From contig JAEPKX010000004.1 in the NCBI GenBank assembly GCA_021375695.1, positions 1-64,000 on the forward strand: 64,000 bases of DNA, read 5' to 3'. Within the stretch, counting starts at the first letter, position 1; each line of letters begins with the position of its first letter. Of this stretch, positions 30,662 through 45,966 are shown one piece after another. This DNA comes from Candidatus Igneacidithiobacillus taupoensis (lineage in GTDB: Bacteria > Pseudomonadota > Gammaproteobacteria > Acidithiobacillales > Acidithiobacillaceae). The translations under genes were made by a program, and so were the position numbers. Under the pieces are notes generated by a model. That model made no database searches, was not told the origin of the DNA, and saw only the letters and a program-made list of their open reading frames with translations.

Positions 30662-30794
30662 GCGCGCGCTCCATCCAAAAAATTTTGCACATCTTACCGA
30701 AGCCTACTTCGGGTGTCGATGATCGCGCAGTGAAGCTGGCAGCCTTGGCAATGGAGGGGTATCCTACATTCTATTGAAAAATTTCGAGGGATCG

Positions 30795-32198
30795 ATGAAA
30801 CAGTACGATATTACGATCATTGGCAGTGGTCCTGGAGGATATCGAGCTGCGGTATTGGGGGCGCTGCGGGGACAAAAAGTGGCCATCATCGAAAAGGGGG
30901 TCTGGGGTGGCACCTGCCTGAACCGCGGCTGTGTTCCCAAAAAGGACTGGCACGAGACAGCAAAATGGATTGAAAACAGCCGGCACTTTGCCAAGCGAGG
31001 GGTCATTGGTGATGGCCTTCGTGGTGATCTGGACCAGGCATGGCAACATCAACGCACGGTGGTGGAAACGGTCCGCAACAGTTATCTGGATTACCTCAAG
31101 CGCCTTGGCGTTACCCTCTATGCAGGCAACGGCAGCTTCCGTGATCCCCGACATATACAGATCCAATCGCCCCAGCAAAGTCTGGAAATCGAAAGCAAAG
31201 CAACCATCATTGCCACCGGTTCCGTTCCCAAACCCGTAGACCCGGCTCTGTTTCAGTCGGGCAAGATCCTCCACAGTGACATGCTCTTTGATGAAGGCGT
31301 ACCCACCGGCAAACGGGTCATCATCGTCGGCGGTGGGGTCATCGGCACGGAATTCGCCTATATCTTTACCCAACTTGGTAAAGAGGTGCAGTGGCTCGTG
31401 CATTCCGATCCTTTGCATCACACCCGTTTTTCCGAGCAAGCCAAAGCCGTCTTGCAAACCGCTCTGGAGGAACTGGACATTCACCCCCAACCCGGTTTTC
31501 GGGTCCACGCCAGCGGCGTCGATGGGGACAAGGTCTGGGTCAGTAACCAGCATGGCGAAAAGGTCTTCGCCGACTGGGTATTATTTGCCACCGGTCGACA
31601 GGCCCAAACGACCGGGCTGGGATTGGAAAATACGTCGGTACAGCTGGACGATCAGGGTTTTGTCGTGACTGACACGCGCCTTGCCACTGCGGAAGAGGGA
31701 ATCTATGCCATTGGCGATGTGGTTGGACCCTATATGAATGCCAACCAGGCCCTGGCCGATGCCACCATTGTCATCGATAACATCCTCGGTGCAGCGCGCC
31801 ATCGCGATCCCCGCTGGGTTCCTGAACTGGTCTACTCGGCGGTGGAGTTGGCGCGGATTGGCCTTGATGACGAAAGCGCCGAAGAAGAGGGATTTGAACC
31901 TGCCGTTGGTTTTGCGGCTTTTGAAACCTCGCCACGGGCCTTGGGTCAAGACGACACCTTGGGATTTGTACGGATTCTGGCAGACATGGACAGTGGGGAA
32001 TTGCTAGGTGGGGAGATCGTTGGTCGCGATGCAGGAGAACTCATCAGCCTCCTTGCCCAGGAAGGCGATCGCAGCACCCTGCTGCAGCGCATTGCCAGGA
32101 CCCCCGTCAATCACCCCTCGCGAGCCGAGGAATTGCTCAACGCTACCGAAACCCTGGCAGCCCGGTGGGGACTGAGTGAATTCGTTTTTGGAGACTAG
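30795..32198 (+). CDS. Dihydrolipoamide dehydrogenase-like NAD(P)/FAD-dependent oxidoreductase
   Basis: ITIIGSGPGGYRAAV...GGTCLNRGCVPKK redox disulfide...YAIGDVVG...NHPSRAEE; start ATG 30795. Confidence 0.88.
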   Translation: MKQYDITIIGSGPGGYRAAVLGALRGQKVAIIEKGVWGGTCLNRGCVPKKDWHETAKWIENSRHFAKRGVIGDGLRGDLDQAWQHQRTVVETVRNSYLDYLKRLGVTLYAGNGSFRDPRHIQIQSPQQSLEIESKATIIATGSVPKPVDPALFQSGKILHSDMLFDEGVPTGKRVIIVGGGVIGTEFAYIFTQLGKEVQWLVHSDPLHHTRFSEQAKAVLQTALEELDIHPQPGFRVHASGVDGDKVWVSNQHGEKVFADWVLFATGRQAQTTGLGLENTSVQLDDQGFVVTDTRLATAEEGIYAIGDVVGPYMNANQALADATIVIDNILGAARHRDPRWVPELVYSAVELARIGLDDESAEEEGFEPAVGFAAFETSPRALGQDDTLGFVRILADMDSGELLGGEIVGRDAGELISLLAQEGDRSTLLQRIARTPVNHPSRAEELLNATETLAARWGLSEFVFGD

Positions 32199-32869
32199 TG
32201 CTTGCGAAAAATGTACTGGTCCAGAAAGCGTCGGGCATCTTCCACTTCGGGCACTATGATCCCGTGGCCCATGGGATAATCTTTCCGTAGCACGTGAAAA
32301 CCTCGCTGTTGCAGAATCTCCTCCCCCCAGATGGCGAACTGCACCGGCAGGATTTCATCGGCGATACCATGGGCCCAAAAGATCACTGGGGCTTTTGGCC
32401 CAGCAACGGGGGTCTGTTGTCGCAGGGGAAGATAGCCGCTAAAGCTCAAGATGACCTGGGTCGGGAGTAATTCACGGACTCCCAGATACAAAGCGAGCGC
32501 CGCGCCTTGGGAAAATCCGCCCAACAACAAGGTTCGTCCAGATAAAACGGGTAGCAAGAGTGCCTGCAAGCGCTCGGAAATCTGCGCAAGTCCCGCGCTA
32601 TCTTCCTCGGAATCCGGTCCGAAACCATAAATATCATACCAGGCCGGCATGACATAGCCACGGTTGACGCTAACCGGACGCTGTGGCGCATCCAGGGCAA
32701 TCAAGTGGAGATCACCCTCGGGATCGAGGGCCTCCGCCAGGGCTTGCATATCAGGCCAATGGGAGCCCAAGCCGTGGAAGAGCACCAAAATGGGAGCCTC
32801 TGGCGAGGCCGCGGGACGCTGCCAAAAACCTTCGGGCCAATGCAGGGGAAGGAGGTTCGTATCAAGCAC
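32195..32869 (-). CDS. Phospholipase/carboxylesterase family alpha/beta hydrolase
   Basis: LVLFHGLGSHWPDM...LLGGFSQGAALALYLG...GHGIIVPEVEDARRFL; GTG start 32869 overlapping upstream regulator stop is more economical than ORF-track 32938. Confidence 0.85.
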   Translation of the reverse strand: MLDTNLLPLHWPEGFWQRPAASPEAPILVLFHGLGSHWPDMQALAEALDPEGDLHLIALDAPQRPVSVNRGYVMPAWYDIYGFGPDSEEDSAGLAQISERLQALLLPVLSGRTLLLGGFSQGAALALYLGVRELLPTQVILSFSGYLPLRQQTPVAGPKAPVIFWAHGIADEILPVQFAIWGEEILQQRGFHVLRKDYPMGHGIIVPEVEDARRFLDQYIFRKH

Positions 32870-34193
32870 AGGAAAGATCCTTGGTTTCTTTGTGGTTCTT
32901 GCGGAGGGATTCCAGCTTGCGATAGAGGGTACGCTCACTCACTCCCAAAGAACGCGCCAAACTGCGCCGATCCCCGGGACAAGAGCTCCGCGCCCAGAGC
33001 AGATAACGCTCCTCCAATTGCTCCAACGGGATGATTTCCTCAAAAGGACCAGAGCTCTGTGCCGAGGAATCCGGCCTGTGTCCAGAGACCGCCTGCAAGG
33101 ATTTTGGCAAATGCTCCGGGAGAATCCAGATATCATCGCAGAGCAAAGCAGCGCGATTGAGAATGTTTCGGAGTTCTCGCACATTCCCAGGGTAATCATA
33201 TGCCATCAACAGTCCTTCGGCTTCGGGTGACAGGCGCAAGCGCCCAAAGCCCATCCGTTGGAGAAGGGCCTCGGCCAAACGGGGAATATCTTCCCGTCGC
33301 TCCCGCAACGGGGGGAGCAAAATAGGGAAGCCACTGATTCGATAATACAGATCCTGTCGAAAACGACCTTCTTCCACCATTTTCTCCAGATCCCGATGGG
33401 TTGCCGAGATCAAGCGAAATTGGGAATGAATGGCATCGACACCACCAACCCGGCGAAAACTACCCGTCTCCAGCAATCTCAGTAGTTTTACCTGGAGTGG
33501 CAAGGGAATATCACCCACCTCATCCAGAAAGAGGGTCCCACCATTGGCGGCTTCGGCCAGGCCAATCTTGCGACTCGATGCCCCGGTAAAGGCCCCTTTT
33601 TCGTGTCCAAAAAGTTCGCTCTCAAAGAGCGTTTCCGACAAACCCGAGCAATCCAGCACCACAAAAGGACCCTTGGCGTGCGTACTGGCGCGATGGATGG
33701 CAGCTGCCGCCAATTCCTTGCCAGTACCCGATTCTCCCAGCAAAAGAACGGAAATATCACTGGGAGCGGCCCGGTGCAGTAATCGCTGGAGCTCTTCCAT
33801 GGCGGCAGATTGCCCGACCAGACCCATGGGTTCGTCGCCCCGATGGGGCAGGATTTGGAGGAGTTCCAGAAAATACGCTGGATTACCCTTGCCATCGCGA
33901 ATAGGAAAAAGATCAATCTGGACAGCCTGCGAACCCTCTACATGGACAACATGCTGGGCGCTACCCTGACGCTGACAGCGCTCCAGCGGACAGTCATTTC
34001 CTCCATCTTCACAGGGGAGTCCAGCATCTGCAAGAATCTCATTGCAGAGTCGTCCACCGAGGGGCTTACCATCCCCAAACTGTTTCCGATAGGCCTGATT
34101 GGCAGCCATAATCTGACGGTTACTTTCCAGCAAAACGGCCGGCGTGGCAAAACAATCAAGCAATGAGGTCAGTTCGGAACGTAACTGTCGCAT
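32862..34193 (-). CDS. Sigma54-dependent enhancer-binding transcriptional regulator with N-terminal PAS-like, Cys-containing sensor region
   Basis: AAA+ Walker A GESGTGKE, GAFTGA loop (HEKGAFTGASSRK), GGTLFLDEVGD, Fis-type HTH (RRSLARSLGVSERTLYRKLESLRK); start proposed at ATG 34193. Confidence 0.93.
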   Translation of the reverse strand: MRQLRSELTSLLDCFATPAVLLESNRQIMAANQAYRKQFGDGKPLGGRLCNEILADAGLPCEDGGNDCPLERCQRQGSAQHVVHVEGSQAVQIDLFPIRDGKGNPAYFLELLQILPHRGDEPMGLVGQSAAMEELQRLLHRAAPSDISVLLLGESGTGKELAAAAIHRASTHAKGPFVVLDCSGLSETLFESELFGHEKGAFTGASSRKIGLAEAANGGTLFLDEVGDIPLPLQVKLLRLLETGSFRRVGGVDAIHSQFRLISATHRDLEKMVEEGRFRQDLYYRISGFPILLPPLRERREDIPRLAEALLQRMGFGRLRLSPEAEGLLMAYDYPGNVRELRNILNRAALLCDDIWILPEHLPKSLQAVSGHRPDSSAQSSGPFEEIIPLEQLEERYLLWARSSCPGDRRSLARSLGVSERTLYRKLESLRKNHKETKDLSCA

Positions 34194-34246: not shown

Positions 34247-34264
34247 ACTGCCAGGATTGGCAGT
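34247..34264. promoter_or_regulatory. Perfect inverted repeat, candidate enhancer-binding (UAS) site
   Basis: ACTGCCA-GGAT-TGGCAGT, ~95-110 bp upstream of the -24 element. Confidence 0.5.
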
Positions 34265-34358: not shown

Positions 34359-34374
34359 TGGCACAAACTTTGCT
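34359..34374 (+). promoter_or_regulatory. Sigma54 (-24/-12) promoter
   Basis: TGGCACAAACTTTGCT, exact match to TGGCACRNNNNTTGCW; 38 bp upstream of the next start codon. Confidence 0.8.
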
Positions 34375-34411: not shown

Positions 34412-35104
34412 ATGATCTTTCGACAGTTTTATTGGGAGAAGGGCCGGCAATTGGCCTATGTCGTGGGAGATCCCATTACCCGGGAGGCGGTGACCATCGA
34501 TGTGGGTACCGGGCAACTGGATCCGGTGGTGGAGTTTCTCCGTAGCCGCGGTCTGCGTCTGCGTTTTGCCCTCCAGACCCACTGGAACAACGATCAACGG
34601 GAGGCTGCCCTGGCGCTGCGCGACCGGGTGGGGGCAAGAATCCTTGCCCAGGAAAGCATTAACGATGCTGCCGTGGATATGCGCATCCGCCACGAAGACC
34701 TGCTCTACTTTGGCGAGGAATGCCTGCGCGTACTCCACACGCCCGGACTGACCCCTTGCGCAGTCATGTACCAATGGGAGGACCGTCTCTTTACGGGAGA
34801 AACGCTGCTGGCGGGAGGGCTCCACCGTCGCGTTCCGGCAGCAAAACGGCCAGCGTTGATCGCCCATCTGCAAAACCTGTTGGCACCCATGGCAGATGAA
34901 ACCCTTCTCTATCCCGCGGTGGAGAACCGCGGCCGCCGCTTGGGGAGTCTGGAAGAGCTGCGCCGCTTGGGCTTTGGCTCGGGAGGCCCCGGTTTACTGG
35001 CCCGCTGTACCCAATATCTACAACACGATGCCGCAAAAAAGAGTCCGGCAGCGCCTGCAGAGGAACCTCTGCAACGCCTTCATTCCGGTCCTGTTCTGTT
35101 GTAA
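34412..35104 (+). CDS. ETHE1/Blh-like metallo-beta-lactamase-fold protein with degenerate metal site
   Basis: Scaffold MIFRQ...GDPITREAVTID...LRFALQTHWNNDQ...HTPGLTPCAVMY...LFTGETLL...YPAVENRGRRLGSLEELRR aligned by eye to ETHE1-family pattern. Confidence 0.8.
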   Translation: MIFRQFYWEKGRQLAYVVGDPITREAVTIDVGTGQLDPVVEFLRSRGLRLRFALQTHWNNDQREAALALRDRVGARILAQESINDAAVDMRIRHEDLLYFGEECLRVLHTPGLTPCAVMYQWEDRLFTGETLLAGGLHRRVPAAKRPALIAHLQNLLAPMADETLLYPAVENRGRRLGSLEELRRLGFGSGGPGLLARCTQYLQHDAAKKSPAAPAEEPLQRLHSGPVLL

Positions 35105-35120: not shown

Positions 35121-36755
35121 ATGGATATGATCATCAATCCCACGGTGGTGGAGCTGTCACGGATGCAGTTTGCGTTGACCGCTCTATACCACTTTTTGTT
35201 TGTCCCCCTCACCCTGGGACTCAGCTTCATTCTGGCGACCATGGAAACCGTGTATGTGGTTACCAAACGCCCCATCTACAAGGAAATGACCCAATTCTGG
35301 GGCAAGCTCTTCGGGATCAACTTTGCCCTGGGGGTAGCAACGGGCCTGACCATGGAGTTTGAATTTGGTACCAACTGGTCCATGTACTCCCACTTTGTAG
35401 GTGACATTTTTGGCACCCCCCTGGCCATTGAAGGGCTCATGGCCTTTTTCATGGAATCCACCTTTGTCGGGGTCATGTTCTTTGGTTGGGATCGACTTTC
35501 GCCCAAGGCCCACCTGGTGGTGACGTACCTGGTGGCATTGGGTTCCAATCTCTCGGCCCTCTGGATCCTCATCGCCAACGGCTTCATGCAGGACCCCCGA
35601 GGAGGAACATTTGATCCCAATACCATGCGGATGCAGTTCACCAGCTTCATTGGCTTGATCTTCAACCCCGATGCCCAGGCCAAGTTTGTCCATACCTCGA
35701 TAGCTGGTTTTGTGACAGGTTCCATGTTTGTGATGGCCGTCTCTGCATACTATCTTTTGAACAAAAAACATCGGGACTTGGCCCTGCGTTCCTTCCGGAT
35801 CGCAAGTATTTTTGGGGTAATTTCCAGCGTCGGCGTGATCACCTTGGGGGATGCCTTGGGTTATATCGATGCCCACGCGCAGCCCACCAAGCTCGCCGCC
35901 ATGGAAGCCATCTGGAAGACTGACACCCATCCGGTTTCGGCAGCGTGGAATCTGATCGCCATCCCCGATCGCCAAGCCCAGAAGAATGTATTTGAAATCG
36001 GCATTCCCTATATTTTGACGCCGTTGTTGACCCATACCGAAACCACGGTCATCCCCGGCATCATTGACCTGGAGCAACAGGCCAAGCCCAAGATCGAGAA
36101 TGGCATCAAGGCCATGCTCGCCCTCAAGGCCTATAATGCCAATCACAGTGACACATCGGCCCTGGCAACGTTCAAGCAGTATGAAAACGACATGGGCTAT
36201 GGCTTCCTCGCCAAGCAATTTGCCCCCGATCAGGATCTGGCCAAGGTAAATCAAGCCAACCTTCCGAGCGTGCTCGACAAAACAGCCAATGCCACCATTC
36301 CCAATGTCTGGGTGGAGTTTTGGGCCTTCCGGATCATGGTCGCAGCGGGCTTTGCCATGCTCGTTCTCTTTGCCTTCGCTGCTTATTATAGCTTGAAAAA
36401 TCAAGTGGAACGGCATCCATTGCTGCTGAAAGTAGCCCTTTGGAGCATCAGCCTCCCCTGGATTGCATGCGAATTCGGCTGGATCACTGCCGAAAACGGT
36501 CGCCAACCCTGGACCGTGTATGGGTGGCTCCCGACCTTTGTCTCGGCTTCCAGCCACTCTGTAGCTTACATGGTCTTCTCGTTGATTGGCTTTGCAATCC
36601 TTTACAGCAGCTTCATCATTGCCGAGCTTTACCTGATGTTTAAATACGCCCGACTGGGCCCCCAGGAAGAACACCACGGCGATGCAGCCCCGGCTGCTGG
36701 TGGTGGATTGGCAGGAAAACCGGCCTTTGCCAAAGCCAGTCTGGATCGGCAATAA
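35121..36755 (+). CDS. cydA: Cytochrome bd ubiquinol oxidase subunit I
   Basis: RMQFALTALYHFLFVPLTLGL...GITLGDALGYIDAHAQPTKLAAMEA...GWITAENGRQPWTVYGWLPT. Confidence 0.97.
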   Translation: MDMIINPTVVELSRMQFALTALYHFLFVPLTLGLSFILATMETVYVVTKRPIYKEMTQFWGKLFGINFALGVATGLTMEFEFGTNWSMYSHFVGDIFGTPLAIEGLMAFFMESTFVGVMFFGWDRLSPKAHLVVTYLVALGSNLSALWILIANGFMQDPRGGTFDPNTMRMQFTSFIGLIFNPDAQAKFVHTSIAGFVTGSMFVMAVSAYYLLNKKHRDLALRSFRIASIFGVISSVGVITLGDALGYIDAHAQPTKLAAMEAIWKTDTHPVSAAWNLIAIPDRQAQKNVFEIGIPYILTPLLTHTETTVIPGIIDLEQQAKPKIENGIKAMLALKAYNANHSDTSALATFKQYENDMGYGFLAKQFAPDQDLAKVNQANLPSVLDKTANATIPNVWVEFWAFRIMVAAGFAMLVLFAFAAYYSLKNQVERHPLLLKVALWSISLPWIACEFGWITAENGRQPWTVYGWLPTFVSASSHSVAYMVFSLIGFAILYSSFIIAELYLMFKYARLGPQEEHHGDAAPAAGGGLAGKPAFAKASLDRQ

Positions 36756-36800: not shown

Positions 36801-37934
36801 ATGGATGCTTATGTATTCTTGAAAGTCTTGTGGTGGTTACTCCTGGGCATCTTGCTCATGGGGCTGGCCATCATGGTAGGGATGGACATGGGAGTGGGGA
36901 CGCTGCTGCGCTTCGTGGGCAAAAATGATGCCGAGCGGCGCACGGTCCTCAATATCGTTGGTCCCCATTGGGATGGTAACCAGGTCTGGTTCATTCTGGG
37001 CGGTGGGGCGATTTTTGCCGCCTTCCCGAGCCTCTATGCCACGTCCTTTTCGGTATTTTACATTGTCATGATTCTCTTGCTCTTTAGCATGATCATGCGA
37101 CCGGTGGCCTTCGAGTACCGCTCCAAGGTTCCTGCCGAGAAATGGCGGGATACCTGGGACTGGGCCTTTTTGATTTCCGGTGCAGTGCCCATGATTGTGT
37201 ATGGTGCGGCTTTTGGAAACATTCTCGAAGGAGTGGGCTTCCACTTTGGCTGGGATGGTCAGTATTATCAAACGGAGTCCTTCCTTTCCTATCTACTCAA
37301 TCCCTTTGCCATCCTCTGTGGCCTGTTGTCCTTGAGCCTGGCCATATACCAGGGGGCTGCCATGCTGATGATCCGGGGAACGGATCCCATCTATAGTCGG
37401 GCCAAAAAGATTGGCTCCGTAGCTGCGCTGGTCAGTGTGGTACTCTTCGTCATCGGTGGTTTCTGGGTATCCGGCATGGACGGTTATGTGCTGCACCATG
37501 CGGACCCTGCCATGCCCGCCAATATTTCCACTCCCCAGGATGTTACCCGGGTGGCAGGCGCCTGGTTGCACAACTATGCTGCGGCACCCATCCTCTGGCT
37601 GATTCCAGTCGTTGCCATCCTGGCCATGCTGGCAGGTAGCCTGGCCATGCGCGCCAACAAGTCGACGTTGGCCTGGTGGCTGGGTGCCGTCGCCTGGATC
37701 GGTGTGCTTAGCACAGCAGGTGTCTCCATGTTCCCTTTCCTCATGCCCTCCAGCGACAACCCCGCCCAGAGCATCACGGTGTGGAACGCTACGGGTAGTG
37801 CATACAACCTGGTTTGGATGACCATCTTCAGTGCCATCTTCGTGCCTACCATCATCGCCTACACAACCTGGTGTTTTCGGGTCATGCGCGGCAAGGTCAA
37901 GAGCCCGAGTCCGAGCGATACCCACGCCTATTAA
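36801..37934 (+). CDS. cydB: Cytochrome bd ubiquinol oxidase subunit II
   Basis: CydB features: GPHWDGNQVWFILGGGAIFAAFPSLYAT, MRPVAFEYRSKV, FPFLMPSS. Confidence 0.97.
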   Translation: MDAYVFLKVLWWLLLGILLMGLAIMVGMDMGVGTLLRFVGKNDAERRTVLNIVGPHWDGNQVWFILGGGAIFAAFPSLYATSFSVFYIVMILLLFSMIMRPVAFEYRSKVPAEKWRDTWDWAFLISGAVPMIVYGAAFGNILEGVGFHFGWDGQYYQTESFLSYLLNPFAILCGLLSLSLAIYQGAAMLMIRGTDPIYSRAKKIGSVAALVSVVLFVIGGFWVSGMDGYVLHHADPAMPANISTPQDVTRVAGAWLHNYAAAPILWLIPVVAILAMLAGSLAMRANKSTLAWWLGAVAWIGVLSTAGVSMFPFLMPSSDNPAQSITVWNATGSAYNLVWMTIFSAIFVPTIIAYTTWCFRVMRGKVKSPSPSDTHAY

Positions 37935-45162: not shown

Positions 45163-45178
45163 TGGCACGATCATTGCT
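45163..45178 (+). promoter_or_regulatory. Sigma54 (-24/-12) promoter
   Basis: TGGCACGATCATTGCT, exact match to TGGCACRNNNNTTGCW, 56 bp upstream of ATG 45234. Confidence 0.78.
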
Positions 45179-45573: not shown

Positions 45574-45966
45574 ATGTACCGCAAGATCATATTGCTTTTG
45601 GCTTTCTCCCTTACTCTGACTTCAGCTGCCTTTGCCGATTCTGCTGGCACTCTTTCACCAAGCAAGATTCACAATCTAGAGCGCTCTGCCCAGCTTGGAT
45701 ATGGTCCCGCCCAGTATGAGTTGGGCCTTGCCTATGCTGCTGGTGAAGGGGTTCCGCAAAACCTCCCGCTTGCGGTACATTGGTGGAAAAAGGCGGCCGA
45801 AAATCTGGATGGTGCGGCGCAATTGGAGCTTGGAACCGCCTATGCCCATGGTTGGGGTGTAGCCAAAAACATGACAAAGGCCATTTACTGGTGGAAGAAA
45901 GCTGCTCGCGATGGTAACCACGAAATTTCGAGCAAGGCTCGCCTCTATCTGGATCAGGCTGCCTAA
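45574..45966 (+). CDS. Secreted Sel1-repeat (TPR-like) protein
   Basis: Signal peptide; AQYELGLAYAAGEGVPQNLPLAVHWWKKAAENLDGAAQLELGTAYAHGWGVAKNMTKAIYWWKKAA. Confidence 0.9.
   Translation: MYRKIILLLAFSLTLTSAAFADSAGTLSPSKIHNLERSAQLGYGPAQYELGLAYAAGEGVPQNLPLAVHWWKKAAENLDGAAQLELGTAYAHGWGVAKNMTKAIYWWKKAARDGNHEISSKARLYLDQAA

Follow-up and report, generated by a model that had tools for sequence, protein, structure and literature searches.

A persulfide dioxygenase homolog without its complete iron site is encoded ahead of the cytochrome bd genes in Acidithiobacillaceae

The iron of ETHE1, a type I persulfide dioxygenase (PDO), is bound by three residues, namely the His that opens HxHxDH, the His in GHT, and the Asp in GD. 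In AcPDO, activity needs the metal ligands as well as R139, D141, and H171 (PMC6060420). In the FisR-PDO-SQR modules of Cupriavidus and A. baumannii, a PDO-type gene with a sigma54 promoter is divergent from the gene of a sigma54-dependent activator (PMC7315123), and a tetrasulfide is formed between C53 and C64 of FisR (PMC8614764). In the acidithiobacilli, two relevant facts are already known, separately. One is an inactive homolog: the purified A. caldus protein A5904_1112 (243 aa) had no SDO activity at pH 3-10, retains just two residues of HxHxDH, the first and last His, and was reported to be without metal ligands (Wu et al. 2017, PMC5584763). That study treats it as a lone inactive homolog, unlinked to sulfur genes, and I found nothing in its text on cydAB, FisR, or conservation. 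The other is an operon start. The cyd operon of A. ferrooxidans begins at AFE_0956 (AFE_0956-0955-0954), and its sigma54 promoter, TGGCACAGAGATTGCT, was mapped by 5′ RACE on S0-grown cells, while AFE_0957 encodes a putative activator and cyo is sigma70-dependent (Moinier et al. 2017, PMC5506826). I found AFE_0956 described there neither as a PDO homolog nor AFE_0957 as a FisR-like sensor, and no palindromic site is defined. The cydAB, cyo, and petII genes of this species are sulfur-induced (PMC2754497), and bd oxidases are known to resist sulfide (PMC9774590). In the open-access literature, I found nothing relevant on FisR in Acidithiobacillus or on PDO pseudoenzymes, and no study connecting the inactive homolog with the operon start.

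The window analyzed here is a stretch of 64,000 nucleotides from Candidatus Igneacidithiobacillus taupoensis (contig JAEPKX010000004.1, positions 1 to 64,000 of the forward strand). An intact ORF at 34412-35104 (+) encodes a metal-less PDO homolog of 230 aa, called pseudo-PDO below, which was assigned by family models, an AlphaFold model, and motif comparison. A sequence-only reading of the window had described it as an ETHE1/Blh-like metallo-beta-lactamase (MBL) scaffold, and both the profile searches and the structure comparison agree with this description. The NCBIfam matches place it in the PDO/glyoxalase II group (GSH_gloB, 3.5e-17; Blh NF040641, 6.8e-7), and no Pfam domain was found in it. 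The AlphaFold model has an MBL fold with a pLDDT of 81, low only over the last 42 residues, and the MBL/ETHE1 fold spans the full length of the protein. The solved structures closest to the model are Myxococcus xanthus ETHE1 (4ysb) and other PDOs (E 2e-15, TM about 0.7), with 5ve3-5, 4chl, and 8zbd among the top matches. Like the type I PDOs (ETHE1; AcPDO; MxPDO, 4ysb), the protein aligns over its full length and keeps the FRQ, GDPxTR, FTG, and YPG...GRR scaffold. In contrast to them, it has a broken iron triad, replaced GRTDFQ and GHDY motifs, a gained cysteine (C116), and a rebuilt C-terminal region.

The altered motifs quoted in the sequence-only reading (THWNNDQ, HTPGLTPC, FTGE, and YPAVENRGRRLGS) are letter-exact. 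The iron triad has changed from H/H/D to H/L/E, the three positions being H57 (codon 34580-34582), L113 (34748-34750), and E130 (34799-34801), all on the + strand; position 130 is the equivalent of ETHE1 D154. THWNNDQ stands where HxHxDH is expected, so that H57 and the Asp (D61) are kept and the other two His are gone (N59 and Q62). The earlier statement that most metal ligands are lost was right for two of the three iron ligands, but H57 is retained, together with D61. GHDY has become A-V-E-N, and GRTDFQ is gone. When mapped by motif, the essential residues of the GSSH site and its network (R139, D141, and H171 of AcPDO) appear to be replaced. The ligand, GRTDFQ, and GHDY positions are invariant in 56 true PDOs (alignment gaps aside) but vary widely in 39 members of the pseudo-PDO clade. 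C116 (codon 34757-34759, +) shows the opposite pattern, being present in 38 of the 39 clade members and in none of the 56 true PDOs. Most relatives also have C7 and C140, both of which are missing from the window protein; two of these three gained cysteines adjoin former active-site motifs. Group A members have a new conserved C-terminal tail, [VL]-[HQ]-[RH]-Y-x-P...P-x-S-[LS], whose motif is weakest in the window protein.

The loss of the triad is graded. Two proteins of the Sideroxyarcus type (L104 and L122) still have H/H/D. H/H/H is found in the NAT125 members and H/H/E in A. sulfuriphilus, and the remainder have lost the triad; H57 and H109 are common across the clade. Among the cyd-linked proteins, position 113 is L, Q, R, or H and position 130 is E, K, M, L, H, N, or I. 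The sequence-only reading had named an alternative complete metal site as a possible objection. This candidate was rejected, as the compared sequences seem to share no conserved set of replacement ligands. A separate intact PDO is encoded beside an SQR-like gene in the genome of the window.

Is the window gene merely a decaying allele? Orthologs with 46-70% identity are found in most Acidithiobacillaceae genomes, together with paralogs at 40-46%. A wider genome scan revealed degenerate relatives in Gallionellaceae (Sideroxydans and Sideroxyarcus) and in the marine gammaproteobacterium NAT125, plus close relatives of each; they were obtained with an alignment-based profile, whereas a single-protein query gave none. 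In a tree of 86 proteins, one branch splits the degenerate proteins from all PDOs (support 86/92; 90% of bootstrap trees). A single origin of the clade would be the simplest reading of this tree, in which the exact place of two long branches (L127 and L025) is unsure. Orthologs without the metal site occur in four genera, the close ones do not keep HxHxDH, and the reading frame is open in nearly all of them. Most close pairs have dN/dS values of 0.09-0.19; two pairs with few differences reach 0.33 and 0.39. Because the loss of the site is family-wide and selection is purifying, a decaying allele is ruled out, and the proposal of a selected pseudoenzyme is supported. In a sample of 369 genomes of the class, the full metal motif was present in all 26 non-family best matches whose motifs were read, and the dead PDO form is therefore rare. 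I take A5904_1112 to be the A. caldus ATCC 51756 copy in this data set (L009), judging from the equal length (243 aa) and the same retained residues. It would then be an apparent ortholog of the window pseudo-PDO that was reported to be inactive.

The start of cydA (cytochrome bd quinol oxidase subunit I, 35121-36755, +) lies 17 nt downstream of the pseudo-PDO gene and is followed by cydB (subunit II, 36801-37934, +). A gene for a FisR-like sigma54-dependent activator (32862-34193, −) is divergent from the pseudo-PDO gene; its ORF can be extended to 34364, and the likely start is Met58 at 34193. Downstream of it is a carboxylesterase-like gene (32195-32938, −), next to the gene of a dihydrolipoamide-dehydrogenase-like disulfide oxidoreductase (lpd-like, 30774-32198, +). 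Both are conserved neighbours, and the gene order in Acidithiobacillaceae is lpd-like, esterase, and fisR-like, then, divergently, pseudo-PDO, cydA, and cydB. The survey of cyd operons suggested by the sequence-only reading found the same degenerate protein directly upstream of cydAB in 21 of 21 checkable genomes, out of 22 having this cydA. One of these copies is frameshifted (G001), and another genome (G013) is outside the count, its locus being broken by the assembly. The frameshift divides the cyd-linked pseudo-PDO gene of A. concretivorus (L176/L055), where both fisR and cydAB are intact, so that this is a natural loss-of-function strain. The pseudo-PDO gene and cydAB have been lost together from between fisR and thiC in three species (G002, G004, and G005), and one genome (G015) has kept the pseudo-PDO gene and lost cydAB. 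The lpd-like gene stays beside the fisR-like gene even where the block is lost; its product might reduce persulfides or disulfides. In NAT125 and its relative, fisR is divergent from the pseudo-PDO gene, a short gene, and cydAB. In Gallionellaceae, fisR and cydAB have the same direction, and the pseudo-PDO gene is opposite, towards a cbb3 oxidase gene.

The divergent regulator appears to be FisR-like by its domains and its cysteine spacing. It has a sigma54 AAA+ domain (PF00158, 5.5e-66) and a Fis-type HTH slightly below the cut-off (PF02954, 9e-4). Its N-domain has Cys50, Cys61, Cys68, and Cys73, numbered from the Met at 34193. The spacing of C50, C61, and C68 (11 and 7) is that of C53, C64, and C71 in FisR, and C50, C61, and C68 are conserved in all 22 Acidithiobacillaceae sequences aligned. 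No fisR-like match above 50% identity was found beside true PDOs among the true-PDO loci examined. The locus resembles the FisR-PDO-SQR modules in that a sigma54 activator gene diverges from a PDO-type gene preceded by a sigma54 promoter, but it has a dead PDO and quinol oxidase genes instead of sqr.

The sigma54 promoter, TGGCACAAACTTTGCT (34359-34374, +), is 53 nt before the start codon of the pseudo-PDO gene and matches the consensus TGGCAC-N5-TTGCW at −24/−12 in 11 of 11 positions. The genome has rpoN. About 100 nt upstream of the promoter is a palindrome, TGYCA-N4-TGRCA (here TGCCA-GGAT-TGGCA, 34249-34262), a putative site of the FisR-like activator. Of the 23 cyd-linked loci, 22 have a promoter score of at least 10/11, a level reached by 0.25% of dinucleotide shuffles. 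The palindrome is present in 23 of 23 cyd-linked, 7 of 8 cyo-linked, and 4 of 4 Gallionellaceae/NAT125 loci (with an N3 spacer in Gallionellaceae), against an expected rate of about 0.5%. Since shuffle rates take no account of relatedness, these counts suggest more independent support than there is, and a stronger argument comes from the recurrence in three lineages. None of 29 true-PDO loci has the palindrome, and the pair of palindrome and promoter occurs once in the genome of the window, at the pseudo-PDO gene. The promoter mapped in A. ferrooxidans is identical to those of three loci analyzed here (L039, L041, and L070), and the AFE_0956 operon is the same operon as that of the window. A second perfect sigma54-type match, TGGCACGATCATTGCT (45163-45178, +), lies about 400 nt before a Sel1-repeat ORF (45574-45966) and is not accompanied by the palindrome pattern. 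The palindrome and a sigma54 promoter also precede the petII region in five Acidithiobacillus genomes (L179, L180, L181, L182, and L183), directly in two of them. This region encodes cytochrome c, SDR, Rieske protein, cytochrome b, c1, and, in some, Hip. The petII sites suggest a wider FisR regulon for sulfur respiration.

The same arrangement is found at another quinol oxidase. A pseudo-PDO paralog with the palindrome heads one subtype of cyoABCD, in 8 of 8 loci of that subtype (7 intact and 1 decayed), while the remaining 22 of the 30 cyoA loci retrieved have neither. The sigma70 dependence of A. ferrooxidans cyo matches the absence of both from that locus. In G002 (L189/L178), a decayed pseudo-PDO remnant is found before cyoABCD; its upstream palindrome is still there, and FisR and cyo remain. 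A third paralog (L052, L058, and L177) has a CysB-like LysR gene on one side and a petI-like bc1 operon on the other in A. ferrivorans, and the bc1-linked copy is truncated in A. ferriphilus. These copies (group C) have no palindrome (0 of 2) and no strong sigma54 promoter, and the FisR model is therefore not extended to them. The sequence-only reading had tied the pseudo-PDO to sulfide/persulfide or bd oxidase function. Given the cydAB synteny, the FisR-like regulator, the sigma54 promoter with its upstream site, and the cyoABCD copy, the link is stronger than proposed.

What does the protein do? It is well supported that it is a dead PDO, that selection acts on it, and that a sigma54 promoter drives its transcription together with a quinol oxidase. 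As for its biochemical role, the best explanation, to which I give a probability of roughly 0.5, may be a non-catalytic protein under FisR control that serves the sulfur-induced respiratory chain as a thiol/sulfane-sulfur partner. A persulfide dioxygenase would have lost iron binding and the GSSH-site residues and yet been retained at the head of a respiratory operon that responds to sulfur. The Cys-rich N-domain of the divergent activator is probably modified by sulfane sulfur in the cytoplasm, and the activator may bind TGYCA-N4-TGRCA and drive the sigma54 promoter for the dead PDO and CydAB; elsewhere in the family, a paralog would be made along with CyoABCD by the same route. The dead PDO would most likely act through protein contact and thiol chemistry and not through oxygenation, the gained cysteines and, in group A, the conserved tail being the possible means of partner action in a sensing circuit. 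Its likeliest single role would be a sulfane-sulfur-responsive partner in the FisR circuit. The absence of C7 and C140 and the weakest tail motif of the window protein count against this partner model, and the retention without cydAB in G015 mildly favours the sensing circuit. Since the gene is lost, frameshifted, or decayed in some species (A. concretivorus, G002, G004, and G005), FisR and the oxidases can do without the pseudo-PDO. A more specific version is tentative and rather doubtful: a PDO that has become a thiol-based sensor of sulfane sulfur, or an anti-activator, working with a FisR-type protein, in a module copied before the bd and bo3 complexes. Sulfur- and iron-oxidising bacteria would then choose between quinol oxidases according to their cytoplasmic sulfane sulfur.

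The restriction to specific oxidase operons speaks for a role at the oxidases themselves. The protein might be an assembly or protection factor for the co-expressed bd and bo3 quinol oxidases, binding the oxidase or a biogenesis intermediate and shielding it, for example by delivering or removing sulfane sulfur at the membrane. I consider this possible but on the whole improbable. It agrees with the fixed place before cydAB and one cyoABCD subtype, with the loss of the block along with cydAB in three species, and with the presence of mt-SAF20, an MBL-fold mitoribosome assembly factor, among the structural matches. However, the gene is retained after cydAB loss in G015 and transcribed away from cydAB in Gallionellaceae, and the sequence has no evident hydrophobic membrane segment. 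A new enzyme using a different metal or metal-free thiol chemistry, such as a sulfurtransferase employing C116, is unlikely. The near invariance of C116, the common H57 and H109, and the H/H/E, H/H/D, and H/H/H triads would fit such an enzyme, but the metal positions vary freely among cyd-linked members and thus give no shared replacement ligand set, and the A. caldus homolog was inactive at pH 3-10, in an assay of SDO only (PMC5584763). Very unlikely is a heterodimeric regulatory partner of an active PDO, even though PDOs are oligomeric, with AcPDO mostly in tetramers (PMC6060420), and the window genome has an intact PDO of its own; in Sideroxydans-type genomes that carry the dead copy, no other strong PDO match was found, and the further hits are at the level of glyoxalase II. 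Active/inactive MBL pairs do exist, INTS11/INTS9 being one. Lastly, a relic leader gene on its way out, kept only because the promoter and translation start of cydAB lie upstream, would explain the frameshift in G001, the decay in G002, and the truncated bc1-linked copy in G004 but is highly improbable in view of the low dN/dS over whole genes, the near-invariant C116, and the retention over four genera and, in G015, without cydAB.

As far as the open-access literature shows, what is new is the family-wide view, the diagnostic C116, the FisR-type regulator, the palindrome common to these loci, and the extension to cyoABCD and petII. Cyd operons headed by a pseudo-PDO could be annotated correctly in place of 'MBL fold hydrolase'. 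The syntenic family also provides a natural series of PDO degeneration that starts with the intact H/H/D of the Sideroxyarcus type, passes through H/H/H and H/H/E, and ends in complete loss; such a series is of use in learning how an enzyme becomes a regulator. For the acidithiobacilli, the proposed FisR control offers a likely reason for the sulfur response of the bd operon, one bo3 subtype, and petII, with named candidates for the sensor (the FisR-like protein), the DNA site, and the accessory protein, a dead enzyme that probably serves as a helper or sensor tying respiration to sulfur.
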